Of a stretch of DNA of 64,000 nt, positions 13,680 through 60,951 are shown piece by piece. Origin of the DNA: Gigantopelta aegis (lineage: Eukaryota; Mollusca; Gastropoda; Neomphalida; Peltospiridae); contig NC_054703.1 of assembly GCF_016097555.1 (NCBI RefSeq), forward strand, positions 2,605,920 through 2,669,919. Reading direction: 5' to 3'. Position 1 is the stretch's first letter, and each line of letters starts with the position of its first letter. The position numbers and the translations under genes are program-made. Under the pieces are notes generated by a model. It had not been told where the DNA came from. It searched no databases and was given only the letters and a program-made list of their open reading frames with translations.

Positions 13680-13930
13680 CTCGTATTATTATTATTATTC
13701 ATTAATTTTATTATCTTTTGAAACATTTATTGTATACATTTAAAATAAGGTATTTACTTCTTCTTCTTCTTATTATTATTATTATTATTATTATTATTGT
13801 ATAGGCTATTCGGAATATTGGTGGGTTTTTCTTTTAAAAATATTTTTCTATTATTATTATTACTGTTATTATTTTTAAAAAAGAAGAGAATATTATTATT
13901 GATTTTTTTTTTTACAAAATGCCATATCAT
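13680..13930. repeat. ATT/TTC microsatellites
   Basis: Runs of ATT (13684-13700, 13772-13798, 13850-13880) and TTC (13758-13770) lie just upstream of the exon-array gene. Nothing else is seen. Confidence 0.7.
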
Positions 13931-14032
13931 TTATATTTGTATAGTTATGTTATATTCTGTTTTACAGCGATTCGGTTTGACGTACGCGAAAACTGCCATT
14001 AGGATGTTCAAAGCTGCTAATTTTCTAACAAA

Positions 14033-15269
14033 ATGAACAAAGGAAGCCCGAAGATTATTCAACTTATAAATGAACTCAATTTTAAAATAGACCACCAAAA
14101 TAGTCAGACGATCTTTGAGAAGTGTTTTAAAACACACAATTTCAACAAAGAATACGACCTTAACATCGTTTCGTGTGAGATAAAATGGTTAAACAGAAAA
14201 CAAGATGGGCGTACAGATTTCCAGATATGTAGGAAAGTGTTTTCTGAAACACAAATCGGTAAAGAAATGTTTTCAGCTTCACAAGCTAACAAAATAAAGT
14301 CAGTTGGAGAAATAATTAGCGAAATCGAAAGTAGAAATCGCCATGCTATAAAAAGAAATATAGAAAAATATTCTGATGAAACCATTTGCGAAGATAATTC
14401 TGATGAACAAAACTACAAAATGTGTTCAGCTCCAGACGTTAATAAAATAAAGTCTGTCGAAGAAATAATTCGCAAAATCGAAAGTAAAAGTCGCCAAGCT
14501 AAACAAAAACGGATAGGAAACCATTCTGCTGAAAACAATAGCGAAGAGGATTCTGATGAACAAAACGAAGTCTATACAGCCCCAGAAGTTAACAAAATAA
14601 AGTCCGTTGAAGAAATAATTCTCAAAATCGAAAGTAAAAGTCGCCAAACTAGAAAAAGAAAGATAGACAAACATTCTGCTGAAAACAGTAGCGAAGATGA
14701 TTCTGATGAACAAAACAAAATGTATACAGCCCAGGAGGTTAACAAAATAAAGTCCGTTGAAGAAATAATTCGCAAAATCGAAAGTAAAAGTCACCAAGCG
14801 AAACAAACACGGATAGAAAAACTTTCTGTTGAAAACAATAGCGAAGATGATTCTGATGAACAAAACAACAAAATGTTTTCAGCTCCAAACGTTATCAAAG
14901 AAAAGTATGTTGAAGAAACAATTCGCGAAATCGAAAGTAAAAGTCTCCTTGCTAGAAAAAGAAAGATAGAAAAGCATTCTGTTGAAAACAGTAGCGAAGA
15001 GGATTCTGATGAACAAAATAACGAAGACGGCGTCAAATCCAGCAAGCTGGAGACCCCCAAGTGTCACACGGACGTGGGTGAACGGCCCATTTCAAACAGT
15101 TTAAAACCGTCATGTGGAAAACCCCTCACGGTGTCGGGCGCTAAAATAGATGACGTCAGAGATCCTGCGCCGTCGCAGTCTTACAACAACTTGGTCAAGT
15201 TCTGGGAGAAGAGAAATCACATGCTGCTACCCAGCCGACTATCTAGAATCGCCAAACTGCAAGAGTCAG
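14033..15269 (+). CDS. Exon-array gene, first coding exon
   Basis: I do not recognise the product. The ATG at 14033 (AACAAAATGA) is the first after an in-frame TAA at 14018, and TCTGTTTTACAG ending at 13967 looks like an acceptor, so the 5' leader is probably spliced. The exon encodes 412 residues plus one base: an N-terminal unit of about 80 residues, then five repeats of about 50 residues built on NKIKSVEEIIRKIESKSRQA, a basic stretch, and an acidic SSEDDSDEQN tract. It is hydrophilic with no signal peptide. It ends GAGTCAG before GTAAGAAAT, a strong donor in phase 1; read-through would stop at 15370. The downstream array exons all start in the matching phase, giving Ser-Gly-Glu-Asp at the junction. 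The link between this exon and the array is inferred from phase, strand and spacing. Confidence 0.7.
14262..15020 (+). repeat. Five in-frame tandem repeats in exon 1
   Basis: A unit of about 147-153 bp is repeated five times and stays in frame. The central three units are most alike; the first and last are more diverged. The antisense open frames over it are mirror images of the repeat and are not genes. Confidence 0.85.
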
Positions 15270-15362
15270 GTAAGAAATGTATAGTTGTAGGCGTCAGCCA
15301 GTACTCTGCTGTTAAGAGCTTAACGGACATATGGACGGTTATGATCGCTCTCTGTCGTCAGA

Positions 15363-15907
15363 CAATCTAATTAAAATTAGCTCCACTATTAGGCCTACAT
15401 CTAACAGCAGCCCATTGGAGCTCATGTCCAGTTGACCTTTCATTCGACCAATCAAAACCGTACTTGCAAAATCATGCCAGTGATTTGAAAAGAATTTGAA
15501 AACGTTCGGGATTATGCCGAGGGTATACGAAATGATTCGGGTGAATTATGAAGTATGCCAGAAACTAATTTCAATATAAAATTCGTTTCAAGACAAAAAA
15601 AAACAACCCAAAAAACCCCGTGATGGTATAGCCATAAAAGCTGTTTATACTAGTATACAATCCAGAGTTTATTACTGCACTTTCCCCCGTTTTTACAATG
15701 TTGAATAGACCAACAAGTTTGCCTATTGCATAAATAGTCTAACCCGATATTTTTAGAATTTATATGCTCCCGAATAACGCTATAAAAGGCGAAGAGTAAT
15801 TGATCGAGATTAAAATTGTTATTTATAGATGAAATGTCACCTGGACATGGGAGTCCACGCAATGTTGTTAGATTTACTGGTAGACCCAGTAGAGCTAATT
15901 TTAATTG
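15363..15907. mobile_element. MITE, CAATCTAATTAAAATTAG family, 545 bp
   Basis: The inverted ends are CAATCTAATTAAAATTAGC and GCTAATTTTAATTG. TCGTCAGA on both sides (15355-15362 and 15908-15915) is an exact 8-bp target duplication. It lies in intron 1 of the exon-array gene. Related pieces occur at 16898-16990 and 54652-54723. Confidence 0.8.
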
Positions 15908-15959
15908 TCGTCAGAGATAACTGTATAGCAAAACACGAAAAAACCGGGTGGGCAAGTAT

Positions 15960-16092
15960 TCCAGCTCTAATACAACAATAACCCTTTGTTTGACATTAAA
16001 TACTTTTAGCCTACATTAATCATTTTCGAGTTCGCCGATAACAAATATTTCACATAGTAATCAATAATACACACACTACAGGACGAAAACTG
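15960..16092 (+). repeat. Repeat family H, diverged copy
   Basis: CCAGCTCTAATACAACAAT, CATTTTCGAGTT and AATACACACACTACAG match 36595-36890 (plus) and 42812-43110 (minus). This copy is shorter and more diverged. Confidence 0.65.
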
Positions 16093-16141
16093 ATCCTACG
16101 ATAGGTTCCTTACCTGTCAAAGAGGAGCAACCAACTTCGCG

Positions 16142-16315
16142 CAGGCCCGTAGCGAGGATTTTGAGAAGGGGGGGGGGGGGGGGGTCGTTTAGGCTTATGA
16201 TGAGGCATGAGTGGCTTGGGGGGGGGGGGTCCGGGGGCATATTGAAAACAAAAGCCACCGGTGGGGGGGGGGTCGACTGCCCCCCCCCCCCGACCCCCCA
16301 TTGACTACGGGCCTG
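16142..16315. mobile_element. MITE with G/C runs
   Basis: The inverted ends are CAGGCCCGTAGCGAGG and TGACTACGGGCCTG. The interior has three long G runs and one C run. The end motif resembles the CAGTGGCGTAGC family. Open frames rich in Pro or Gly here are artefacts of the runs. Confidence 0.65.
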
Positions 16316-16619
16316 ATCGCGGCTTACTTCTTATTCCATGATGCTCTAATCATAATGATGAAGATCAGTAGCGGATACAAGGGGTGTCCGGTGTTCAAGC
16401 GCCACCCCACCCCCCTTTTTCAGATAAGATGCCTTTTTCAAACAAAAATAAAATATTAAGGTTTTTTCTTTTTTTAGCACGACTATGTTCGTGGTGAACG
16501 AACAACAAAGCAGCGTAGATGTATATAGTTATTTACTAAATTAGTAAAAAGAAGCATTTTCTTTATGTTAGAACTGCACGAAAACCGGAAGTATTGGAAG
16601 TTGATCGGCATGCTCCCCC

Positions 16620-16746
16620 ACCCCAATTAATTTTTAAATTTTTTTAAACTATTAAATTTTATAAAATCATACAGACATACATAGTGTGCCCCCCCCCCCC
16701 CCCTCCCCCCACACACACACTATAAAATCCTGGTTACGCCAGTGTA
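16620..16746. mobile_element. Partial MITE, reverse copy of 11213-11402
   Basis: The right end CCTGGTTACGCCAGTG and the interior TTTTATAAAATCATACA match the element at 11213-11402 in opposite orientation. The left end is not clear. Confidence 0.55.
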
Positions 16747-16897
16747 CCACCGGTTTTATAGCAACAAATGTCTGTCGCTGTAAGGTCTCATAATGATATG
16801 CTTTCGTTTTTGCCTCGTCTTAACGGGGGGTGGGGGGGGGGGGGTAGTCTTGGTACCCCCACAGGCGTACGTAACCTATTTTTCTAGGGGGCAGGCT

Positions 16898-16990
16898 CAA
16901 TCTAATTAAAATTAGCTCCACTATTACATGTGGATCTAACAGCAGCCCGTTGGACCTTTCATTCGACCAATCAAAACCTTACTTGCCTTA
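16898..16990. mobile_element. Truncated MITE at array boundary
   Basis: It matches the first 100 or so bases of the MITE at 15363 (CAATCTAATTAAAATTAGC, then CATTCGACCAATCAAAAC). The match stops where the first array repeat (CTTATAACTATCAGTG) begins, so the left boundary of the tandem array cuts the element. Confidence 0.7.
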
Positions 16991-17137
16991 TAACTATCAG
17001 TGCGTAACGAATGTCAACGGCTTATTTTATACTATCTTATAACTAATGTCAACCGCTTGTTTTACACAGCCTTATAACTAATATCAGTGGCTTATTTTAC
17101 ACTGCCTTACAACTAATGTCAGTGGCTTATTTCACTC
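16988..17137 (+). repeat. Intronic 35-bp minisatellite (unit 1)
   Basis: The motif CTTATAACTAATGTCAGTGG plus a T-rich CTTATTTTACACTGC half repeats four to six times before each exon. Equivalent blocks lie near 17871-18090, 18822-19000, 19732-19950, 20682-20890, 21620-21805 and 22530-22735. Confidence 0.8.
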
Positions 17138-17235
17138 CGCGTGTTTGACAGTACATGCTGATGTCAGCAACTTCAAAGTTGTATAAGCTGGGACAATTGT
17201 TCTAATTCTGACACTGATATCGATGATGATTTCAG

Positions 17236-17640
17236 GTGAAGATTGCAATTCACCTGTACTGACAGAAGAATCGCAGCAGGAGGTTCTCAAACCGCACTCT
17301 AGTCCCCAAGAGATCTCCAAACCATACTCTAGTCTCCAAGAGATCTCCAAAACATGCTGGCCAATGACACAAAACTCCCAGCCGCCAACCTGCGAACAGA
17401 ACGACTTTCGATCCTGCGATTCCGAGCAGAATGTCAAATCTGTAACGTTGCGGACAGACTCGCACCTGAACTTGTCACCTACACCAGAATCCACGACATG
17501 TTGCCAGCAGGACGTCGAGTTATGCGCTGCCGAGCAAAGAGACACGTGTTCTCCTCCTCCCTCGCCAGAGAACTCCCTATCGTACTCATCACCCGTGACT
17601 CCTGAGTTTATCAAGTCGCAGACTCCCGTGTCCAGTCCAG
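17236..17640 (+). CDS. Array exon 1 of 7 (135 codons)
   Basis: Acceptor GATTTCAG, donor CCAG before GTATGG, phase 1 at both ends, so it can be included or skipped without shifting frame. The peptide starts GEDCNSPVLTEESQQEVLKP, has a twofold SSPQEISKPY/SSLQEISKT motif, several Cys, and a Ser/Pro-rich end (SPPPSPENSLSYSSPVTPEF). It looks disordered and has no known domain. Read-through past the donor gives GMVYQRTWWCVLSCFKMCRS and a stop near 17720. Variants here: KTCWPMTQ, SPTPEST, ELCAAEQ. Confidence 0.7.
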
Positions 17641-18188
17641 GTATGGTATATCAAAGGACGTGGTGGTGTGTACTGTCTTGTTTTAAAATGTGTAGGAGTA
17701 AGGATAAACACCGGAGTTAATGTTGTTGCTTTTGGGGGTTTTCCAACCATCTACTTCCATTTGTTTTGTTTTTGTTTGTTTAGTTTTTATCTTTCCGTTT
17801 TCTTTAAAATGACACTGTTCACTTGTATATATATATATATAACGATGGTACTTTTCAATTCAAAATTGCCTTATAACTATCAGTGCTTAACGAATGTCAA
17901 CGGCTTATTTTATACTATCATATAACTAATGTCAACGGCTTCTTTTACACAGCCTTATAACTAATATCAGTGGCGTATTTTACACTGTCTTATAGCTAAT
18001 GTCAGTGGCGTATTTTACGCTATCTTAGAACTAATGTCAGTGGCGTATTTTACACTGCCTTACAACTAATGTCAGTGGCTTATTTCACTCTGCGTGTTTG
18101 ACAGTACATGCTGATGTCAGCAACTTCAAAGTTGTATAAGCTGGGACAATTGTTCTAATTCTGACACTGATATCGATGATGATTTCAG

Positions 18189-18593
18189 GTGAAGATTGCA
18201 ATTCACCTGTACTGACAGAAGAATCGCAGCAGGAGGTTCTCAAACCGCACTCTAGTCCCCAAGAGATCTTCAAACCATACTCTAGTCTCCAAGAAATCTC
18301 CAAACCATGCTCGCCAACGACACGAAACTCCCAGCCACCATCCTGCGAACAGAACGACTTTCGATCCTACGATTCTGAGCAGAATGTCAAATCTGTAACG
18401 TTGCGGACAGACTCGCACCTGAACTTGTCACCTCCAGCAAAATCCACGACATGTTGCCAGCAGGACGTCGAGTCATGCGCAGTCGAGCAAAGAGACACGT
18501 GTTCTCCTCCTCCCTCGTCAGAGAACTCCCTGTCATACTCATCACCCGTGACTCCTGAGTTTATCAAGTCGCAGACTCCCGTGTCCAGTCCAG
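18189..18593 (+). CDS. Array exon 2 of 7
   Basis: Same length, splice sites and phase as the first copy. Variants: QEIFKPY, KPCSPTTRNS, FRSYDSEQ, SPPAKST, ESCAVEQ and PPSSENS. It is the partner of copy 5 in its first half. The following intron has the variant GGGGATTTTCC. Confidence 0.7.
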
Positions 18594-19101
18594 GTATGGT
18601 ATATCAAAGGACGTGGTGGTGTGTACTGTCTTGTTTTAAAATGTGTAGGAGTAAGGATAAACACCGGAGTTAATGTTGTTGCTTTGGGGATTTTCCAACC
18701 ATCTACTTCCATTTGTTTTGTTTTTGTTTGTTTAGATTTTATCTTTCCATTTTCTTTAAAATGACACTGTTCACTTGTATATATATATAACGATGGTACT
18801 TTTCAATTCAAAATTGTCTTATAACTATCAGTGCTTAACGAAGGTCAACGGCTTATTTTATACTATCTTATAACTAATGTCAACGGCTTGTTTTACACAG
18901 CCTTATAACTAATATCAGTGGCGTATTTTACACTGTCTTATAGCTAATGTCAGTGGCGTATTTTACGCTATCTTACAACTAATGTCAGTGGCTTATTTCA
19001 CTCCGCGTGTTTGACAGTACATGCTGATGTCAGCAACTTCAAAGTTGCATAAGCTGGGACAATTGTTCTAATTCTGACACTGATATCGATGATGATTTCA
19101 G

Positions 19102-19506
19102 GTGAAGATTGCAATTCACCTGTACTGACAGAAGAATCGCAGCAGGAGGTTCTCAAACCGCACTCTAGTCCCCAAGACATCTCCAAACCATACTCTAGTC
19201 TCCAACAGATCTCCAAAACATGCTGGCCAATGACACAAAACTCCCAGCCACCAACCTGCGAACAGAACGACTTTCGATCCTGCGATTCCGAGCAGAATGT
19301 CAAATCTGTAACGTTGCGGACACACTCGCACCTGAACTTGTCACCTCCACCAGAATCCACGACATGTTGCCAGCAGGACGTCGAGTTATGCGCAGTCGAG
19401 CAAAGAGACACGTGTTCTCCTCCTCCCTCGCCAGAGAACTCCCTATCGCACTCATCACCCGTGACTCCTGAGTTTATCAAGTCGCAGACTCCCGTGTCCA
19501 GTCCAG
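19102..19506 (+). CDS. Array exon 3 of 7
   Basis: Same structure. Variants: PQDISKPY, LQQISKTCWPMTQ, LRTHSHL, ELCAVEQ and LSHSS. Copy 6 shares all of these, as expected if units 4-6 were copied from units 1-3. Confidence 0.7.
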
Positions 19507-20050
19507 GTATGGTATATCAAAGGACGTGGTGGTGTGTACTGTCTTGTTTTAAAATGTGTAGGAGTAAGGATAAACACCGGAGTTAATGTTGTTGCTTTTG
19601 GGGGTTTTCCAACCATCTACTTCCATTTGTTTTGTTTTTGTTTGTTTAGTTTTTATCTTTCCGTTTTCTTTAAAATGACAGTTCACTTGTATATATATAT
19701 ATAACGATGGTACTTTTCAATTCAAAATTGTCTTATAACTATCAGTGCTTAACGAATGTCAACGGCTTATTTTATACTATCATATAACTAATGTCAACGG
19801 CTTGTTTTACACAGCCTTATAACTAATATCAGTGGCGTATTTTACACTGTCTTATAGCTAATGTCAGTGGCGTATTTTACGCTATCTTAGAACTAATGTC
19901 AGTGGCGTATTTTACACTGCCTTACAACTAATGTCAGTGGCTTATTTCACTCCGCGTGTTTGAGAGTACATGCTGATGTCAGCAACTTCAAAGTTGTATA
20001 AGCTGGGACAATTGTTCTAATTCTGACACTGATATCGATGATGATTTCAG

Positions 20051-20455
20051 GTGAAGATTGCAATTCACCTGTACTGACAGAAGAATCGCAGCAGGAGGTT
20101 CTCAAACCGCACTCTAGTCCCCAAGACATCTCCAAACCATACTCTAGTCTCCAAGAGATCTCCAAACCATGCTCGCCAACGACACAAAACTCCCAGCCAC
20201 CATCCTGCGAACAGAACGACTGTCGATCCTGCGATTCCGAGCAGAATGTCAAATCTGTAATGTTGCGGACAGACTCGCACCTGAACTTGTCACCTACACC
20301 AGAATCCACGACATGTTGCCAGCAGGACGTCGAGTTATGCGCTGCCGAGCAAAGAGACACGTGTTCTCCTCCTCCCTCGCCAGAGAACTCCCTATCGTAC
20401 TCATCACCCGTGACTCCTGAGTTTATCAAGTCGCAGACTCCCGTGTCCAGTCCAG
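20051..20455 (+). CDS. Array exon 4 of 7
   Basis: Same structure. Variants: PQDISKPY, KPCSPTTQ, NDCRSCDSEQ (an extra Cys), KSVMLRT, SPTPEST and ELCAAEQ. The second half and the following intron match copy 1, while the first half is mixed, a sign of exchange between units. Confidence 0.7.
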
Positions 20456-20990
20456 GTATGGTATATCAAAGGACGTGGTGGTGTGTACTGTCTTGTTTTA
20501 AAATGTGTAGGAGTAAGGATAAACACCGGAGTTAATGTTGTTGCTTTTGGGGGTTTTCCAACCATCTACTTCCATTTGTTTTGTTTTTGTTTGTTTAGTT
20601 TTTATCTTTCCGTTTTCTTTAAAATGACAGTTCACTTGTATATATATATATATAACGATGGTACTTTTCAATTCAAAATTGCCTTATAACTATCAGTGCT
20701 TAACGAATGTCAACGGCTTATTTTATACTATCATATAACTAATGTCAACGGCTTCTTTTACACAGCCTTATAACTAATATCAGTGGCGTATTTTACACTG
20801 TCTTATAGCTAATGTCAGTGGCGTATTTTACGCTATCTTAGAACTAATGTCAGTGGCTTATTTCACTGCCTTACAACTAATGTCAGTGCTTTGACGTGTT
20901 TGACAGTACATGCTGATGTCAGCAACTTCAAAGTTGTATAAGCTGGGACAATTGTTCTAATTCTGACACTGATATCGATGATGATTTCAG

Positions 20991-21395
20991 GTGAAGATTG
21001 CAATTCACCTGTACTGACAGAAGAATCGCAGCAGGAGGTTCTCAAACCGCACTCTAGTCCCCAAGAGATCTTCAAACCATACTCTAGTCTCCAAGAAATC
21101 TCCAAACCATGCTCGCCAACGACACGAAACTCCCAGCCACCATCCTGCGAACAGAACGACTTTCGATCCTGCGATTCCGAGCAGAATGTCAAATCTGTAA
21201 CGTTGCGGACACACTCGCACCTGAACTTGTCACCTCCACCAGAATCCACGACATGTTGCCAGCAGGACGTCGAGTTATGCGCAGTCGAGCAAAGAGACAC
21301 GTGTTCTCCTCCTCCCTCGCCAGAGAACTCCCTATCGCACTCATCACCCGTGACTCCTGAGTTTATCAAGTCGCAGACTCCCGTGTCCAGTCCAG
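20991..21395 (+). CDS. Array exon 5 of 7
   Basis: Same structure. The first half matches copy 2 (QEIFKPY, KPCSPTTRNS), the second half matches copy 3 (LRTHSHL, PPPEST, ELCAVEQ, LSHSS), and the following intron matches the intron after copy 2. The mosaic points to gene conversion or unequal exchange. Confidence 0.7.
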
Positions 21396-21903
21396 GTATG
21401 GTATATCAAAGGACGTGGTGGTGTGTACTGTCTTGTTTTAAAATGTGTAGGAGTAAGGATAAACACCGGAGTTAATGTTGTTGCTTTGGGGATTTTCCAA
21501 CCATCTACTTCCATTTGTTTTGTTTTTGTTTGTTTAGATTTTATCTTTCCATTTTCTTTAAAATGACACTGTTCACTTGTATATATATATAACGATGGTA
21601 CTTTTCAATTCAAAATTGTCTTATAACTATCAGTGCTTAACGAAGGTCAACGGCTTATTTTATACTATCATATAACTAATGTCAACGGCTTGTTTTACAC
21701 AGCCTTATAACTAATATCAGTGGCGTATTTTACACTGTCTTATAGCTAATGTCAGTGGCGTATTTTACGCTATCTTACAACTAATGTCAGTGGCTTATTT
21801 CACTCCGCGTGTTTGACAGTACATGCTGATGTCAGCAACTTCAAAGTTGCATAAGCTGGGACAATTGTTCTAATTCTGACACTGATATCGATGATGATTT
21901 CAG

Positions 21904-22309
21904 GTGAAGATTGCAATTCACCTGTACTGACAGAAGAATCGCAGCAGGAGGTTCTCAAACCGCACTCTAGTCCCCAAGACATCTCCAAACCATACTCTAG
22001 TCTCCAACAGATCTCCAAAACATGCTGGCCAATGACACAAAACTCCCAGCCACCAATCCTGCGAACAGAACGACTTTCGATCCTGCGATTCCGAGCAGAA
22101 TGTCAAATCTGTAACGTTGCGGACACACTCGCACCTGAACTTGTCACCTCCACCAGAATCCACGACATGTTGCCAGCAGGACGTCGAGTTATGCGCAGTC
22201 GAGCAAAGAGACACGTGTTCTCCTCCTCCCTCGCCAGAGAACTCCCTATCGCACTCATCACCCGTGACTCCTGAGTTTATCAAGTCGCAGACTCCCGTGT
22301 CCAGTCCAG
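21904..22309 (+). CDS. Array exon 6 of 7, frameshifted
   Basis: Otherwise like copy 3, but 406 nt long: one extra base at CAGCCACCAATCCTGCG (other copies read CACCAACCTG or CACCATCCTG). In the array frame this changes the peptide after NSQPP. Because the exon is phase-symmetric, skipping it would keep the protein in frame. The inserted base looks like a fusion of the two allelic forms ACC and TCC, so conversion or an assembly join are both possible. Confidence 0.65.
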
Positions 22310-22831
22310 GTATGGTATATCAAAGGACGTGGTGGTGTGTACTGTCTTGTTTTAAAATGTGTAGGAGTAAGGATAAACACCGGAGTTAATGTTGTTGCTT
22401 TTGGGGGTTTTCCAACCATCTACTTCCATTTGTTTTGTTTTTGTTTGTTTAGTTTTTATCTTTCCGTTTTCTTTAAAATGACAGTTCACTTGTATATATA
22501 TATATAACGATGGTACTTTACTTTCAAAATTGCCTTATAACTATCAGTGCTTAACGAATGTCAACGGCTTATTTTATACTATCTTATAACTAATGTCAAC
22601 GGCTTGTTTTACACAGCCTTTATAATAAGTGGCGTATTTTAATGTCAGTGGCGTATTTTACACTGTCTTATAGCTAATGTCAGTGGCGTATTTTACGCTA
22701 TCTTACAACTAATGTCAGTGGCTTATTTCACTCCGCGTGTTTGACAGTACATGCTGATGTCAGCAACTTCAAAGTTGTATAAGCTGGGACAATTGTTCTA
22801 ATTCTGACACTGATATCGATGATGATTTCAG

Positions 22832-23448
22832 GTGAAGATTGCAATTCACCTGTACTGACAGAAGAATCGCAGCAGGAGGTTCTCAAACCGCACTCTAGTC
22901 CCCAAGAGATCTCCAAACCATACTCTAGTCTCCAAGAGATCTCCAAACCATGCTCGCCAACGACACAAAACTCCCAGCCACCATCCTGCGAACAGAACGA
23001 CTTTCGATCCTGCGATTCCGAGCAGAATGTCAAATCTGTAACGTTGCGGACAGACTCGCACCTGAACTTGTCACCTCCACCAGAATCCACGACATGTTGC
23101 CAGCAGGACGTCGAGTCATGCGCAGTCGAGCAAAGAGACACGTGTTCTCCTCCTCCCTCGCCAGAGAACTCCCTGTCGTACTCATCACCCGTGACTCCTG
23201 AGTTTATCAAGTCGCAGACTCCCGTGTCCAGTCCAGGTATGGTATATCGGAAGAATACACCGGTTCAGAATAGTGAGTCGTGTTGTTGCCAGGCGTCTCT
23301 CAAACCCCGGCTACGCTCTTCAACGAGGCGTCTCATGGTGAGCGTGTGGTGGGGGGTCGGCTTTCTGTTAATAGTCCTCCTGCAGTTTCTTTTATTTACC
23401 GATCGCATTGAAAGATCCCGCAAGACCAAACTCAACGAGTGTTTTTAA
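22832..23448 (+). CDS. Array exon 7, terminal, with membrane anchor
   Basis: The first 405 nt match the other copies. Instead of the usual intron, the frame continues past the CCAG/GTATGG site for 69 more codons to TAA at 23446-23448. The added tail has a Cys cluster (ESCCCQAS), basic residues (KPRLRSSTRR), one hydrophobic segment (VWWGVGFLLIVLLQFLLF) and a charged end (DRIERSRKTKLNECF). This is a single C-terminal membrane anchor: topology could be type I or tail-anchored, and with no signal peptide seen, tail-anchored is likelier. With exon 1 and all in-frame copies except the sixth the protein would have 1292 residues; with exon 1 and this exon only, 617. No family is recognised. It lacks the PPPX ending of KASH domains. 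Confidence 0.7.
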
Positions 23449-23570
23449 AAATCATGAGCAGTTGGAAAAAAATCTGAACGAAGATTATTAATAGTAAAAC
23501 TGCAAAATGCACGTATGTCTGTTTTAAGCAACAACAAAAAAAAAAAAAAAAAAAAAAAAAAATATTAAAA

Positions 23571-23576
23571 AATAAA
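23571..23576 (+). terminator. Possible polyadenylation signal
   Basis: AATAAA lies about 120 nt after the stop of the exon-array gene, just after an A run of about 30. It is the only standard signal close to the stop. Confidence 0.45.
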
Positions 23577-23806
23577 AAAGGCGGGAAGTAGAGCGGTATG
23601 GGTCACAGTATCAGTTTGTGTTCCCTATATGGTAAATCAAAGGACGTGGTGGTGTGTACTGTCTTGTTCGAAAATGTGTAGTAGTAAGGATAAACACCGG
23701 AGTTAATGTTGTTGCTTTTGGGGGTTTTCCAACCATCTACTTCCATTTGTTTTGTTTTTGTTTGTTTGTATATATTTCCGTTATCTTTAAAATGACACTG
23801 TTCACT

Positions 23807-23812
<6 letters not shown>

Positions 23813-23860
<48 letters not shown>
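23813..23860. repeat. TA microsatellite
   Basis: A TA run of about 24 units, an expansion of the short TATATATA found at the same place in every array unit. Confidence 0.9.
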
Positions 23861-23861
<1 letters not shown>

Positions 23862-24279
23862 CGATGGTACTTTTCAATTCCATCAATAGAATTTTATTTT
23901 CCATCATTAAGATTGGTTCATTACATGTAAAACATATACATTTAACTAGTATTTTATTTTGGTGAAAATTATACCAGATATTAGTTAACATTAAGTGACC
24001 AAGTGTCGGTAAAAAAAATGTTTTACAAGTTTTTATTATTTATTTGTTTGTGTTGAAAAAAAAAAGAATACAAAATTACAAAAAATCCCATTCCTTATTG
24101 TAGGCATGGGATAAAAACCAAATTTAAATAAATATTGTTGTTTTTTTCCGTTGTTTCTTTACGTGTTCGCGTTTCTCATAAATTTAATACACACACGTGT
24201 AGGCCTACACGTAATACTAATACATGCATAATGTTTTGATAAACAAACGTGTATACATATATGCTTATTGTAATGTTCT

Positions 24280-31369: not shown

Positions 31370-31780
31370 ACAGTTCTTTATTTGTGTCTGGCTATTACGA
31401 ATCAGGGCAGTTCTTTATATACAATTCAAGTCAGCTCTGGCTATTACGAATCACGGCAGTTCTTTATTTACAATTCAAGTCCGCTCTGGCTATTACGAAT
31501 CACGGCAGTTCTTTATTTACAATTCAAGTCCGCTCTGGCTATTACGAATCAGGGCAGTTCTTTATTTACATTTCAAGTCAGCTCTGGCTATTACGAATCA
31601 GGGCCGTTCTTTATTTACAATTCAAGTCCGCTCTGGCTATTACGAATCGGGGCAGTTCTTTATTTACATTTCAAGTCAGCTCTGGCTATTACGAATCAGG
31701 GCCGTTCTTTATTTACAATTCAAGTCAGCTCTGGCTATTACGAATCACGGCAGTTCTTTATTTACAATTCAGCTAGTTTA
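31370..31780 (+). repeat. 49-bp minisatellite, eight copies
   Basis: TCTGGCTATTACGAATCAGG plus CAGTTCTTTATTTACAATTC recurs at an exact 49-bp step (31391, 31440, 31489, 31538, 31587, 31636, 31685, 31734). Degenerate pieces continue to about 31880. Because the unit has no forward stop and 49 is not a multiple of three, all three forward frames are open; these are not genes. Confidence 0.9.
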
Positions 31781-33032: not shown

Positions 33033-35990
33033 TTCTTCTTCTTCTTCTTTTCGTTCGCTTGTTGACTACACGTCGAGGCCAGCAGTGACTATGAACGATA
33101 CTGTTCTCTGTAGATCACTTCTTGTGTCATACAGCTTCTTCTGGAGAGTTGTTGTAGTTGTCCAGGTAGTCTCCCTCAGCTGCTGAAGGTTTATGCAGTC
33201 TTGGATGACATGTTCGGTCGTCTCTTCTGCTTCTCCACAGGAACACATGGATGGAAGAAGGTACCAGCCGGAACCTCTTATGCATATGCTGGTTCAGCCT
33301 GTTGTGTCCAGTCCTTAGTCGGAAAATGATGACCTGTTCCTGACGGGATAGCAGGTAATAATCATTGGTTTGTTTGGGAGGTCTATAGAGAAATTTAATA
33401 TGGGATTTCATCTCTTCGTATGTCACCAAGTTATCCTCCTATTCTTTAGCTGCACCCAGTTTTGCCAGTCTGTCTGCATTTTCATTTACTGGTATGCCAC
33501 AGTGAGCAGGGATCCCTTGTAACATGACTTGGTTGACACTGCTGATAGGATGTAGGGCTTCTGAAAGACTGTCAAGATTGTTGTTTTCAAGAGCTTGGAG
33601 GGCAGAGAGAGCATCAGTCATGAATACGACATGTGAGCAGTTTTCTTCTCTGGTGCTGATGATGTGGGCAGCATGAATGACAGCCTCAACCTCTGCAGCA
33701 TAGTTTGTGCAGTGTTTCCCTGTAGGAAAATGTGCCTCCTCTCGGTAGCCACTAGGGTCCATGATGTATATTCCAGCCGCTCCATTTTCCACTGCATCTG
33801 TTGCAGATCCATCAGTATATACCTGTGTCCATGATGTATCTGGATACTGTTCATCAATCATGGCCAGTGTCAGGGCTCGTTTGTATGGTTCATTGTGTTC
33901 CTCTCCAGGGGTGAGGTGTTGGACCACTGTGCAGATCTTTACATTGTCCAGTTGTGGTTCCCATGATGGGATGCAACTGACAGTACTAACTTGATGGATT
34001 TTATCTGGGAGTTGTCCCTTATGTTGCCTCAAGAGTGATTTGCTCTGTTTATGAAAGCTAGTTCTTTTGAGTCTGTTGCAGGGATAGTCATTCATTCTCT
34101 TGTTCATTGGGTGTTGTGACAAAGACTTGAACTTAGTGGCTTGTATCATGAGCTTTGAGTCCCGGCGTTTGCTGAGGGATACGATGCCAGTGAGCTGTTC
34201 CATTTTCTCAATGGGGGTTCACCTCATTGCTCCAGTTATTATCCTGAGTGCTTGGTTTTGAACCCTGTCTAGTTTGTGACTTTGCTGTGACTTTGCTGCT
34301 GTTGACCATTGTGACGGAACATGCTCTTAATTTTATGTTTTCGCCTGTGGCAATATTAATTGTTTTAGAGGGCCGTGTGCAGTTCCAATATGCACTTAAG
34401 CTCAGGCGGGCAACTTGTTACGTGATACCTTTGCGCGACGGTCGTCGAGCTTTTCTAATACACACCCAGCCCAGGTGCGGAGGCCATGTGGCCAGTAGTT
34501 ACGTAATAACTCCGGTAGAACGGTTTATGACCGGGGGATTTCTGGCGAACTGGCGACAGAATGTCTGGTCATCTAAGAAAATATATAGACTCTGGGAGTG
34601 GTGGAAATTCACATGATAAGATTCAGTACCGCGATGTGCCCCCAGACGATATTCGGGTTTTATGATAAATAGCTAGGGTTTTAGAGATATGAAGGAGAAA
34701 CATAGGAAGGCTGCAGGGGAAACGGACGTCGTCCACTGAACGAAATATATGAGTTCAGCCCGGACGTGGTAATTATATATTATTTCTGCTCTGTTGTATA
34801 CCTTGATGTGATTGATGTGACTTTAAATATTTTAATACTGTATTATACCAATATTATTTAGACGGTGCTGCCGGTCATCTGACGCAGTAATCTGTAGGCT
34901 CACTGTCTAAATAATTATTAAAGCTTAGCCAGTCATCCTAGAGGACCTAGGTAAACTGTAGGTTATTGTCTTTATTGTGATAGGTACCAGTATTAATTCT
35001 GTGTTACAAGGTTACTGAATGAGTAGTTAAGGGTTAATTCAAAATTAACCAGTTAGGAATAGAGTTGTAATTCCTTTATTAATTAAGTTCCCCTGGAAGC
35101 GTTTCTCAATTATCACACGCGTGGGTGTTGTGTCACGGTGAAGTGATTAGCATATTGTGTAAACTAGACACCTAGAGATTAACTAATTAAGTGATCAGTT
35201 CTGGGTTGTTATTATTTGTTGTTGTTAATTAACTACTGCGGCAGAAAATTTGTCAGCGTAGGTTAATACAGATTCCAAAGTGTATTGTGTTTTTGTTGTG
35301 TTTTCTAGTGAACTAAACGTGCTATATTATATATACTTTATATAAGATCTTATCTCTGATCATACCTAGACGAGCCAGCAGGTATAACTGCCTGTTACAG
35401 AGAGATCTAATAGATATACAGTTAGGAGAGATATTTGGACAATCGTGTTTCATTCAGTTACGGGTATTATAGGATCCCCCTGACAACCATGCACTTTATC
35501 CGTACTCAAGATGTGGTCTGATTGCTCCTTGGTAGACTCTTTTCAGTATGTTATGATCAGCACCCCACTTGGTGCCAGCTAGTTTTCTCATTATAGCAAG
35601 TTTTCTTCGAGCTTTGGCCTCGGCTTTCTCCAATTGTGGTTTCCAGGTCTGTCTCTTGTCAAACGTGACCCTCAGGTATGTCTGTGATCCTCATACTGGA
35701 GAGGCGTGTCATCAAGTTTGAGGTTGCCTGCTTCCTGTTTTGTGGAGAGCAGCTGACTTGTCTTTGTTGATTGTCATGCACCAGTCTCGAGTCTAAGATG
35801 TAACATTGTCAAGGGCAAGCTATTGTTGCATATTCCTCCGAGCACCACAAAACTAGGTCATCTGCATATAGTGCTGTATGTATCCCTTTGGGTAGTTATG
35901 TGACCAGGTCATTGATGAAGATGATGAAGAGAGTAGGTGACAGTACTCCTCCCTGAGGTACTCCATGGCGTATGAGTATTTTCTTTAGTA
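33033..35990 (-). mobile_element. LINE with RNase H, 5' truncated, interrupted
   Basis: Reading on the minus strand from 35990: part of a reverse transcriptase (GVPQGGVLSPTLFIIFINDL, then the catalytic ALYADDLVLW), the thumb (RPHLEYG), a solo LTR, then LDRVQNQALRIITGAM and an RNase H domain (VYTDGSATD, AAEVEAVIHAA, VFMTDALSALQ, IPAHCGIPVNENADRLAK) and a C-terminal zinc-knuckle region (MCSCGEAEETTEHVIQDC). RNase H after the RT puts it in the I-like group of LINEs. The endonuclease and the front of the RT are gone. There are stops in the RT part and frame breaks near 33430 and 33250. An AAG-rich tail near 33033-33050 marks the 3' end. Confidence 0.8.
34310..35485. mobile_element. Solo LTR inside the LINE
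   Basis: A 1176-bp segment begins TGTGACGG and ends CCTGACA, with ACCAT on both sides (34305-34309 and 35486-35490) as a 5-bp target duplication. No internal region remains. The length and TG..CA ends suit a Ty3-like retrotransposon. It is a fossil left after loss of the interior, and younger than the LINE it sits in. Confidence 0.8.
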
Positions 35991-39810: not shown

Positions 39811-40871
39811 CAGACTGTCCAGCTATCCTACTTTTTCGTACTTTTTGGTCTTTGTCCTATTTTTTCTACTTTTTCTTCAGAATACTTAGTTTTTCGTACT
39901 TTTTTGTTTGAAAATGCCACGAATTGCTGTTAAAGTGTGCATATTCCTTGTGTTATTATAAAAGTTATCAGTTATGGGAAATATTTTAATTTTTCTTGGC
40001 AGCATGATTGTATCTCCCAATTTGTGGCACCATATAATCTCAACATATTAAAATTACATCCTCAAAGCCAACATATTTTCCAATGATTAATATGATTATA
40101 ATGTACAATGTGTATGTATGACTTCAGAATCTATAATACATTATGGAAAACCTAAATTAATCGTGTTAACTGTTTTACTGTGCATCAGCATTCCTATGCA
40201 TGTACCGGCCTCGGTGGCGTCGTGGCAGGCCATCGGTCTACAGGCTGGTAGGTACTGGGTTCGGATCCCAGTCGAGGCATGGGATTTTTCATCCAGATAT
40301 CGACTCCAAACCCTGAGTGAGTGCTCCGCAAGGCTCAATGGGTAGGTGTAAACCACTTGCACCGACCAGTGATCCATAACTGGTTCAACAAAGGTCATGG
40401 TTTGTGCTATCCTGCCTGTGGGAAGCGCAAATAAAAGATCCCTTGCTGCCAATCGGAAGAGTAGCCCATGTAGTGGCGACAGCGGGTTTCCTCTCAAAAT
40501 ATGTGTGGTCCTGAACCATATGTCTGACGCCATATAACCGTAAATAAAATGGGTTGAGTGCGTCGTTAAATAAAACACTTCTTTCTTTTTCCTATGCATG
40601 TAAATATATATATTGATTACTATAGTGTACAGTAATTTGAAATAACTGTATAACGTGACCGTTGAATAAGATTTACATTATTTTTGATAGAACACAAAAT
40701 ACATGTACAAACTAAGCACCACATAAAAAGTTGTTTTGAGCATGAATAATGTCGCTACGTACTGTTTCAGTCCTACTTTTGTTCTACGTTTTCCTATTTT
40801 TATCCTACATTTACTCTATTTTCATTCCTAATTGTGTCCAACTTTTTCAAAAGGGTGTGCTGGACAGCCTG
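39811..40871. mobile_element. hAT-like non-autonomous element
   Basis: The tips CAGACTGTCCAGC and GCTGGACAGCCTG are inverted, and both subterminal regions repeat CCTACTTTTT-like words in opposite senses. Flanks ATATTTTA and ATTTTATA are only roughly alike. A SINE of type C sits inside. Confidence 0.55.
40205..40588 (+). mobile_element. SINE type C, full length
   Basis: The head ACCGGCCTCGGTGGCGTCGT has an A-box-like TGGCGTCGTGGC and the B box GGTTCGGATCCC. The body GTGATCCATAACTGGTTCAA and the type B tail TATAACCGTAAATAAAATGG follow. The 14-bp repeat TTCCTATGCATGTA at 40191-40204 and from 40589 is a target duplication. Confidence 0.9.
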
Positions 40872-45760: not shown

Positions 45761-46146
45761 AAGAAGAAGTGTTTTTTTATTTAACGACGCACTCAACACA
45801 TTTTATTTACGGTTATATGGTGTCAGACATGGTTAAGGACCAGACAGATTTTAAGAGGAAACCCGCTGTCGCCACTACATGGGCTACTCTTCCGATTGAC
45901 AGCAAGGGATCTTTTATTTGCACTTCCCACAGGCAGGATAGCACAAACCATGGCCTTTGTTGAACCAGTTATGGATCACTGGTCGGTGCAAGTGGTTTAC
46001 ACCTACCCATTGAGCCTTGCGGAGCACTCACTCAGGGTTTTGGAGTCGGTATCTGGATTAAAAATCCCATGCCTCGACTGGGATTCGAACCCAGTACCTA
46101 CCAGCCTGTAGACCGATGGCCTAACCACGACGCCACCGAGGCCGGT
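45761..46146 (-). mobile_element. SINE type C, full length
   Basis: Complete from the ATTTAACGACGCACTC tail to GACGCCACCGAGGCCGGT. ATGATCTGGAA at 45750-45760 and again after 46148 is the target duplication. The B box reads GGTTCGAATCCC on the minus strand. Confidence 0.9.
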
Positions 46147-48302: not shown

Positions 48303-48782
48303 TAAAGTTTGTTTTGTTTTAATGAAAGAAAGAAAGAAAGAAGTGTTTTATTTAACGACGCACTCAACACATTTTATTTACGGTTATATAGCGTCAGACA
48401 TATGGTTAAGAACCACACAGATTTTGAGAGGAAACCCGCTGTCGCCATTACATGGGCTACTCTTCCGATTAGCAGCAAGGGATCTTTTATTTGCGCTTCC
48501 CACAGGCAGAATAGCACAAACCATGGCCTTTGTTGAACCAGTTATGGATCACTGGTCGGTGCAAGTGGTTTACACCTACCCACTGAGCCTTGCGGAGCAC
48601 TCACTCAGGGTTTGGAGTCGGTATCTGGATTAAAAAATCCCATGCCTCGACTGGGATCCGAACCCAGTACCTACCAGCCTGTAGACCGATAGCCTGCCAC
48701 GACGCCACCGAGGCCGGTTTGTTTTAATGACACCACTAGAGCACATTGATTAATTTAATCATCGGCTATTGGATGTCAAACA
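48303..48782 (-). mobile_element. SINE type A tail, split by a SINE
   Basis: The tail starts AAAGTTTGTTTTGTTTTAATGA at 48303 and continues after the inner SINE with CACCACTAGAGCACATTG to 48782. No head or core. Confidence 0.7.
48323..48717 (-). mobile_element. SINE type C inserted in a SINE tail
   Basis: Complete type C with a GAAA-rich tail; TTTGTTTTAATGA flanks it on both sides as target duplication derived from the outer SINE. Close to consensus, so fairly young. Confidence 0.9.
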
Positions 48783-53213: not shown

Positions 53214-53253
<40 letters not shown>

Positions 53254-56717: not shown

Positions 56718-58216
56718 TACTCTTCAAAAGAAGAAACGCAAAACCACACTGTCGTAACATTTGGAGAATTGATTTAATTATTGAATGGTGAGTCCGATAA
56801 TTACCAAATGTTGCAGGATTGTTCACAATTCACTCTAGTCCATTGTGAGCAAGTGATAGGACACACCACCAAGGTCAAGGTCATCTGGAGTCAATACCGG
56901 GTGTGGCCTCCGCGTGTGTTGACAACTGCCTGGCACCGCCTGCCCATTGAAGCAACCAGAGTACGGATGACGTCCCGGGGGATGGTGGCCCACTCGGCCT
57001 GTAAGGCTGCTGCCAGCTCGGGCAGGGTCTGGGGCTGTGGTTGTCGCTGTCGGAGGCGTCGGTCCAACTCGTCCCATAGATGCTCAATTGGGTTCAAATC
57101 CGGTGATATCGATGGCCAAGGAAGGACATTAATGTTGTTGTTCTGTAGGAAAGCCGTTGTGAGACGTGCTGTGTGAGGCCTGGCGTTGTCATGTTGGAAC
57201 ACTGCGTTGGCGTTGGCCATAACTGGAACGATGTGTGGCCGGAGGATCTGGTCAATGTAGCCCTGTGCATTCAGGTTGCCCTGCACGTGGACCAGGTCAG
57301 TTCTGCCAGTGTGTGAGATGGCTGCCCACACCATGACACTACCCCCGCCGAATCTGTCCACTTCCTGCACGCAGTTTGCCGCATAATGTTCACCACGACG
57401 CCTATACACGCGACATCTTCCATCATGACGTCGGAGCAGAAATCGGGACTCGTCACTGAACCACACCTGTCTCCATCGCAGTTGAGGCCATTGTCGATGA
57501 ATCTGGCACCACTGCAGTCGGAGTCGACGGTGTAGTGGTGTTAAGATGACACCTCGAACTGGACGTCTGGCACGAATTCCTACCTCACGTAGGCGGTTCC
57601 GTACGGTCTGGTCGGATATCCTGCGCAAACCTGGTATTGCTGTGGCTGTGGAGGTGGCAGTAGTCAATCGTTCCCGAAGGTGGCGTACCCGGATGTAGCG
57701 GTCCTGCCCGGGGGTAGTGACCCGTGGTCGACCGGATCTAGGGAGGTCACGTGTTGATCCATGTTGCTGGTAACGGTCCCACAGTCTGGAGATGGTGCTT
57801 GGGGACACATGGAATGCCCTGGCAACGGCCGTTCTGGATTCGCCTGCGTCTAGTCGGCCGATGGCATGGTTTCTCTGCGGTTCACCGAGATGTGGCATGT
57901 CCTGGATTGTCAACTGTCGGCCAGATACAGAGGCCAGGCAAGCGAACACCCTGCACTTTTATACTGTCGGTGTTCATGTTGCACGTGCAGACAACGCACG
58001 TGCAGTGGTGACATGGTTTGCACGTGGCTGCGTTTTTGCGAATATTCACATTATGGAACTTTATTGTACAGTAGCTGCGTTTTATCGAATGTAACCGTGG
58101 GAATGTGTTTGGGACATGCAATGACCTTATATTCACAAAGCATGAACCGGTAGGAAACATAAAATCGGGAGTTATAACCCATTTGTACCCTTTTGCGTTT
58201 CTTTTTTTGAAGAGTA
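56718..58216 (-). mobile_element. Tc1/mariner transposon, looks complete
   Basis: The terminal inverted repeats of about 26 bp start TACTCTTCAAAAGAAGAAAC on the left and TACTCTTCAAAAAAAGAAAC on the right (minus), then GCAAAA; one mismatch. TA flanks both ends (56716-56717 and 58217-58218). The 1.5-kb length, one uninterrupted transposase and near-identical ends indicate a recent and possibly still mobile copy. Confidence 0.92.
56891..57949 (-). CDS. Tc1-type transposase, DD34E, intact
   Basis: A 352-residue open frame; the likely real start is the second Met (MPHLGEPQRNHAIG, 57898), giving 336 residues, usual for Tc1 transposases. An N-terminal helix-turn-helix (SRTAVARAFHVSPSTISRLW) and an AT-hook-like PRSGRPRVT linker precede a second HTH. 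The catalytic triad is seen as Asp in WFSDESRF, Asp in FQHDNARPHTA, and Glu in SPDLNPIEHLWDEL, with 34 residues between the last two. The Gly-rich GGGSVMVWAAI box is present. It cuts and pastes the element at TA sites. No stop or frameshift is seen. Confidence 0.95.
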   Translation of the reverse strand: MFACLASVSGRQLTIQDMPHLGEPQRNHAIGRLDAGESRTAVARAFHVSPSTISRLWDRYQQHGSTRDLPRSGRPRVTTPGQDRYIRVRHLRERLTTATSTATAIPGLRRISDQTVRNRLREVGIRARRPVRGVILTPLHRRLRLQWCQIHRQWPQLRWRQVWFSDESRFLLRRHDGRCRVYRRRGEHYAANCVQEVDRFGGGSVMVWAAISHTGRTDLVHVQGNLNAQGYIDQILRPHIVPVMANANAVFQHDNARPHTARLTTAFLQNNNINVLPWPSISPDLNPIEHLWDELDRRLRQRQPQPQTLPELAAALQAEWATIPRDVIRTLVASMGRRCQAVVNTRGGHTRY

Positions 58217-60563: not shown

Positions 60564-60951
60564 AAAGAAAGAAAGAAGTGTTTTATTTAACGACGCACTC
60601 AACACATTTTATTTACGGTTATATGGCGTCAGACATATGGTTAAGGACCACACAGATTTTGAGAGGAAACCCGCTGTCGCCATTACATGGGCTACTCTTC
60701 CGATTGGCAGCAAGGGATCTTTTATTTGCACTCCCCACAGGCACGATAGCACAAACCATGGCCTTTGTTGAAGCAGTTATGGATCACTGGTCGGTGCAAG
60801 TGGTTTACACCTACCCATTGAGCCTTGCGGAGCACTCACTCAGGGTTTGGAGTCGGTATCTGGATTAAAAATCCCATGCCTCGACTGGGATCCGAACCCA
60901 GTACCTACCAGCCTGTAGACCGATGGCCTGCCACGACGCCACCGAGGCCGG
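60564..60951 (-). mobile_element. SINE type C, full length
   Basis: TTTATTTAACGACGCACTC to GACGCCACCGAGGCCGGT, with a GAAA-rich tail. AATCATGTACTG flanks it on both sides. Confidence 0.9.

Follow-up and report, generated by a model that had tools for sequence, protein, structure and literature searches.

A terminal exon probably multiplied in place into a tandem array of phase-symmetric exons in a lineage-specific gene of Gigantopelta aegis

How does a gene come to hold a run of near-identical internal exons, all in the same phase, in front of a terminal exon that itself begins with another copy of the same unit? This question is raised by a gene on the forward strand of a 64,000-nucleotide (nt) stretch of the genome of the deep-sea vent gastropod Gigantopelta aegis (contig NC_054703.1, positions 2,605,920 to 2,669,919; hereafter the window), in which seven copies of a unit of about 405 nt follow a long first coding exon. 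Protein searches with the locus matched three proteins, all of G. aegis: P0001 ("myb-like protein V", 529 amino acids (aa)), P0002 (LOC121377068, 514 aa) and P0003 ("flocculation protein FLO11-like", 1210 aa). From the organization of the locus and its comparison with these proteins, we consider it likely, at a probability of roughly 60%, that, in a gene for a lineage-specific, tail-anchored protein, part of a terminal exon was multiplied in place through tandem duplication inside the gene and unequal exchange. The parts of the locus are as follows.

13968..15269 (+): first coding exon, ATG at 14033; relatives P0001 and P0002 and protein P0003 at NCBI
15270..17235 (+): intron 0, 1966 nt
17236..17640 (+): unit exon 1, 405 nt, phase 1-1
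18189..18593 (+): unit exon 2, 405 nt, phase 1-1
19102..19506 (+): unit exon 3, 405 nt, phase 1-1
20051..20455 (+): unit exon 4, 405 nt, phase 1-1
20991..21395 (+): unit exon 5, 405 nt, phase 1-1
21904..22309 (+): unit exon 6, 406 nt, frameshifted
22832..23448 (+): terminal exon, coding part, made up of unit 7 (22832-23236) and a 70-residue tail common to P0001 and P0002
23449..23627 (+): presumed 3′ untranslated region (UTR) and poly(A) region, with an A-rich stretch and hexamers, then TTTGTGTT
23628..23880 (+): 3′ flank homologous to the 5′ part of introns 1-6 by sequence comparison

All seven copies share the acceptor TTTCAG/GTGAAG and the 3′ edge CAG/GTATGG (7/7; the slash marks the exon edge), and pairwise they are 0-19 substitutions apart over 405 nt, copy 6 having one inserted base as well. 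Over the array they form a repeat family of seven ungapped copies of 300 nt at 85-100% identity, which is far beyond chance. The preliminary description of this DNA, made from the sequence alone, had reported seven 405-nt exons that are in phase 1 at both ends; this stands for six copies at 405 nt with shared edges, while copy 6 measures 406 nt and copy 7 is fused to the terminal exon. Its first exon of 412 codons in the matching phase was borne out, as the open reading from the ATG at 14033 to 15269 comprises 1237 nt, that is 412 codons and 1 nt, and ends in phase 1. The 5′ edge of this exon at 13968 is a plausible candidate acceptor only, preceded by TTTTACAG. Because of one extra base at 22057, copy 6 runs into a TGA at 22272-22274, 35 nt upstream of its 3′ edge; with that base removed, it equals copy 3 exactly. 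The frame of copy 7 does not close at the would-be donor but continues as GMVYRKNTPVQ...NECF to a stop at 23446-23448, so that the coding sequence of the gene ends at 23448.

The introns were duplicated together with the exons. Introns 1-6 measure 548, 508, 544, 535, 508 and 522 nt, and pairs of them are separated by 1-15 substitutions and 0-5 gap events over about 510-550 nt. The locus thus presents adjacent, near-identical exons of the same phase with co-duplicated introns, five copies being regular and copies 6 and 7 deviating. Unit 3 is one base apart from unit 6 and intron 2 one base apart from intron 5, which points to a recent exchange of a whole block. A 35-nt minisatellite of the TAACTAATGTCAGTGGCGTATTTTACACTGTCTTA type lies upstream of every unit acceptor, at 17005-17132 and in each array intron; it has about 2.5-5.9 copies per site and could promote unequal exchange. 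With copy 6 omitted, units 1-5 can be combined in 32 ways, anywhere between zero and five of them being included, and each combination keeps the frame from exon 1 to the tail (32/32). Since copy 6 is frameshifted and copy 7 is fused to the terminal exon, five and not seven copies are freely skippable, and the earlier proposal that any number of copies can be spliced in without a frame shift is to be limited to units 1-5.

Comparison with the three matched proteins places the array beside simpler forms of the gene. P0003 is exactly identical to exon 1 and copies 1-6 up to the stop in copy 6, and its unit-to-unit junctions, as given in this database protein model, are identical to those of the locus. 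An NCBI model of the locus therefore already exists, and the gene can no longer be called unrecognised, as it had been at first; it was not found in the literature under the FLO11-like name for Gigantopelta. P0001 and P0002 each contain the exon-1 region, exactly one unit and the tail, and in alignment each is 93% identical to the one-unit form of the window. The junction LQES-G-EDC between exon 1 and the unit is present in both of these database protein models. P0001 and P0002 are encoded on a contig of 47,477,099 bases and P0003 on one of 40,821,028 bases, which we take to be different chromosomes.

The assignment of the phase-symmetric tandem exons to a mollusc gene was confirmed by the source of the protein matches, G. 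aegis. Relatives outside this species were absent among the best 7991 and 7985 word-sharing candidates, among which distant ones may be missed. With the first 95 residues of P0002 as the query, P0002 alone matched among 12 candidates, which is weak evidence for missing relatives given that P0003 fell outside the length range and P0001 does not have this part. By these searches the gene is found in G. aegis alone and, as judged from the sequences, the array is real and young. The names "myb-like protein V" of P0001 and "flocculation protein FLO11-like" of P0003 are attached to members of one family and have no domain support in the window sequence; they look like low-complexity matches. Identity with FLO11 or another flocculin, suggested by the NCBI name, was rejected, as no flocculin or other Pfam domain scored above threshold.

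The flanks of the array indicate how it may have arisen. The 3′ ends of introns 1-6 repeat the final ~250 nt of intron 0, and on the other side of the gene the segment 23628-23824 matches intron 1 at 94.5% over 200 columns. Between the two, the tail and the poly(A) region are bracketed by 11-nt near-repeats, TATGGTATATC (23238-23248) and TATGGTAAATC (23628-23638), which lie 390 nt apart. After the stop there are an ATTAAA at 23564 and an AATAAA at 23571, both inside the A-rich stretch 23536-23579 (40/44 A), followed by a GT-rich stretch; intron 0 carries six AATAAA/ATTAAA hexamers, and these hexamers are absent from the plus strand between 17236 and 22831. We propose that the first event would have been the tandem duplication of a segment that starts late in intron 0, spans the terminal exon and extends into the 3′ flank, and that the upstream copy would then have lost the 390-nt piece between the near-repeats, with the tail codons, the stop and the poly(A) region. 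With the stop and the poly(A) signals lost, the last exon would become internal, and the formerly coding CAG/GTATGG would serve as a donor, so that the unit would turn into a symmetric exon inside the gene. Six copies would finally have been made and homogenised in steps of ~0.91-0.95 kb, by unequal crossing-over and gene conversion. An origin of the array introns from a dispersed repeat was also considered and is not borne out by sequence comparison within the window, where matches to intron 1 are confined to the array, intron 0 and the 3′ flank, save for 19 nt at 53237.

The encoded protein is probably a single-pass, C-terminally tail-anchored and mostly disordered protein, as far as its sequence tells. 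The 70-residue tail contains a transmembrane candidate, VSVWWGVGFLLIVLLQFLL, followed by 17 residues, and ends in ...KTKLNECF. The best 19-residue hydropathy window scores 2.25 in the tail, and the maximum in exon 1 is 0.17; by hydropathy alone, the protein has a single C-terminal transmembrane candidate and none near the N-terminus, as in a tail-anchored protein. KASH proteins carry a PPPX motif at the C-terminus after the transmembrane helix. The end ...KTKLNECF has no such motif, and the identification as a KASH-domain (nesprin) protein was dropped. Exon 1 contains five tandem repeats of 150-153 nt each at about 14264-15019; the encoded repeats are of 50 residues, charged and predicted with low confidence to form a helix. 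There are five of these 50-residue repeats in the window and in P0001 and three in P0002. The unit is rich in serine and proline, with 27 Ser and 19 Pro in the 134 residues of unit 7 as well as 10 S/T-P motifs. The early statement that the peptide matches no family was upheld, since nothing scored above threshold in Pfam or NCBIfam: in Pfam unit 1 matched 0 families, and exon 1 gave two and the terminal exon one match, all sub-threshold; neither exon 1 nor the terminal exon reached threshold in NCBIfam, a prokaryote library. When exon 1 was searched against PDB sequences, a single match came up at E = 0.94, taken as chance, and Rfam gave 0 matches at the gathering threshold. Each unit would lengthen by 135 residues a Ser/Pro-rich linker that separates the membrane anchor from the helical, charged repeats of the N-terminal region, and the length of the protein would be set first by DNA copy number, with splicing perhaps dropping further units. 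Our best guess at the function, drawn by inference, is a variable-length linker, disordered and open to phosphorylation, that joins a charged helical region to a C-terminal anchor.

Among the alternatives, the one that survives best is that the assembly miscounted or blended the copies, such that the true array is of another size and the copy-6 frameshift is a consensus error. This is a real possibility, though one that we rate below the in-place multiplication of the terminal exon. The published G. aegis assembly, from which the window, judged by its species, probably derives, was built from PacBio subreads corrected by Canu, assembled by wtdbg2 and polished by Racon and Pilon (PMC7895826), and assembly from corrected subreads is compatible with such errors. 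At the site of the extra base, the sequence is CCAACC in copies 1 and 3 and CCATCC in copies 2, 4, 5 and 7; copy 6 reads CCAATCC and so holds both variants side by side in a sequence that is otherwise that of copy 3. The near-identity of units 3 and 6 and of introns 2 and 5 is also consistent with blended copies. However, intron lengths vary and units 1-5 and 7 all differ from one another, which argues for several real copies and is unlike a pure artefact. Host complementary DNA (cDNA) was sequenced as 150-nt Illumina reads (PMC7895826).

Several observations weigh against the proposed origin or against a working product. At the edge of the tail, the window has SSPG-MVY-RKNT and both paralogs have SSPG-EIQ-RMNT at equal length. 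The deletion model in its simple form does not account for this difference, which could stem from later conversion by an upstream copy or from an intron located here in the paralogs. P0003 ends at the copy-6 frameshift and does not include the tail, the unit acceptors are pyrimidine-poor (44%) and weak, and the poly(A) hexamers in the A-rich stretch could be chance occurrences. AlphaFold, run with an alignment of four rows, gave no usable model (mean per-residue confidence (pLDDT) 37.3, predicted TM-score (pTM) 0.16), and because of this the description of the protein as disordered comes from its composition and the low confidence only. The ratio of nonsynonymous to synonymous differences per site (pN/pS) ranges from 0.61 to 3.29 among 15 pairs of units 1-5 and 7, unit 6 being set aside because it nearly duplicates unit 3, and the pooled value for the exon-1 repeats is 0.98 (10 pairs). 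Neither result points to purifying selection, so the array may be idle or the locus decaying. When 26 neutral changes were placed, a number chosen to match the variable sites, a stop-free outcome had P = 0.29, so the absence of stops is weak evidence.

A second alternative, in which the one-unit paralogs are the working genes and the locus is an expanded pseudogene with neutral units and a frameshift, is in our estimate unlikely. It agrees with pN/pS values near 1 and with the frameshift in copy 6. Purifying selection was not detectable in the amino-acid sequence of the array by a comparison that has low power at such divergence and ignores gene conversion, and the exons are as variable as the introns, with 25 of 405 variable columns in units 1-6 and 21 of 496 ungapped columns in introns 1-6 (Fisher P = 0.22). 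Yet a single open frame runs across the splice junctions through exon 1, units 1-5, unit 7 and the tail, and the frameshift may itself be an assembly error. The exon-1 repeats also have pN/pS near 1 and are nevertheless open, and low constraint may therefore be the norm of the family.

Somewhat less likely still is that units are skipped, by program or stochastically, through dual-specific CAG/GT sites that yield a ladder of protein lengths. Each unit starts with GT and ends with AG, the adjoining dinucleotides being AG before it and GT after it, with CAG/GT at all 14 unit edges (14/14). Between 15260 and 23245, every CAGGT word (15/15; there are 43 in the window) is the exon-1 donor, one of the seven unit starts or one of the seven unit ends. 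Donor sites were scored by a simple matrix of donor base frequencies. The exon-1 donor, CAG/GTAAGA, had the top score among 656 GT sites in 13901-24000, and the unit starts, scored as donors, reached 7.48 and ranked 10-16 among the 646 GT sites in 13968-23880. The sites that score above them are the exon-1 donor, the seven unit ends and one position in the tail, 23338. If any of introns 1-6 were retained, a stop is predicted after 26 codons. AG/GT at an exon edge is, however, a common splice context, and since the seven units are copies of each other, the 15 edges amount to about three independent observations.

A precedent for such skipping is the human polyubiquitin gene UBC, which has dual-specific sites at each monomer edge and yields a ladder of isoforms, the removal of units being shown by reverse-transcription PCR (PMC10809524). 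Both genes have tandem in-frame units, AG/GT at every boundary and units that are removable without a change of frame. In contrast, the coding units of UBC are contiguous, whereas introns of 508-548 nt, ~0.5 kb each, separate the units here; the UBC mechanism cannot be assumed for this reason, and skipping in the present gene is hypothetical. Alternative splicing of the units is possible on sequence grounds. A more speculative extension, which we regard as improbable, would make the terminal exon a dial: with CAG/GT on both sides, copy number and stochastic splicing would set the length of the linker, and including unit 6 with its frameshift would switch the anchor off and give a soluble form.

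It is very doubtful that the tail is a later insertion, a 5′-truncated cDNA of the family placed in the intron after unit 7 with an 11-nt target-site duplication: TATGGTATATC and TATGGTAAATC do bracket the tail, the array intron resumes after it and the A-rich stretch 23536-23579 follows the 3′ UTR, but the second flank is separated from the A-rich stretch by 48 nt, which include a GT-rich stretch resembling that of a genomic cleavage site, and no second tail was found in the window by tblastn with all three proteins, such that the source would be elsewhere or lost.

The multiplication of the terminal exon that we favor has partial precedents, and the suggestion that the locus is an undescribed system was not sustained, as arrays of same-phase exons are on record in the leucine-rich repeat (LRR) genes of Tetrahymena (PMC6564038), as is variation of unit number by splicing in UBC (PMC10809524). 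The Tetrahymena LRR genes with 90-bp exons are the closest precedent for the array: they too are young, lineage-specific genes in which exons of a set length and a single phase are arrayed in tandem, and the authors invoke unequal crossing-over and possibly retrotransposition (PMC6564038). There, thousands of genes are concerned, with 90-bp exons in phase 2 that encode LRR; here it is one locus, with units of 405 nt in phase 1 and no known domain. In the potato RNA-dependent RNA polymerase (RdRp) gene, a duplication across an intron-exon boundary gave rise to an additional intron whose donor had previously been exon sequence (PMC4974935). The recruitment of a donor from formerly exonic sequence after a boundary-crossing duplication is common to both cases; the potato event concerns intron 1 and exon 2, whereas the one proposed here concerns a terminal exon, with loss of the stop and the poly(A) region. 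The SmPoMuc genes for polymorphic mucins of Schistosoma are likewise a multi-gene family that recombines and has tandem repeats as well as splice variants (PMC2576457). Transcription was shown for them and is presumed for the present family, and the likeness is one of organization.

Apart from this gene, the window holds several features of other kinds. On the minus strand, 56891-57958 is an uninterrupted open frame of 355 residues, stop to stop, with matches to DDE_3 and HTH_Tnp_Tc3_2, and its sequence suggests that it may be an intact Tc1-type transposase. Four tRNA-like predictions with unclear anticodons (40208-40279, 46070-46142, 48643-48714 and 60877-60948) adjoin recurring translated stretches (...GYMASDIWLRTTQILRGNPLSPLHG...) and are probably tRNA-derived short interspersed elements. 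A fragment of an RNase H domain at 33439-34218 on the minus strand (Pfam E = 5.6e-12) is probably the end of a long interspersed element. At 31387-31771 there is a tandem array of about 7.9 copies of a 49-nt unit, covered by a long open frame in each of the three forward reading frames (3/3).

For the public annotation, the gene model of this locus, with its name, its missing tail and its frameshifted end, is suggested to need revisiting. The one-unit relatives and the AG/GT edges render the hypotheses on origin and on splicing directly testable. If the proposed course is true, a terminal exon was very recently turned into a run of internal, frame-neutral exons, with the one-unit relatives likely representing the state before. 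The locus could then show how repeat-rich proteins lengthen, and whether AG/GT boundaries aid the splicing of newly formed arrays.

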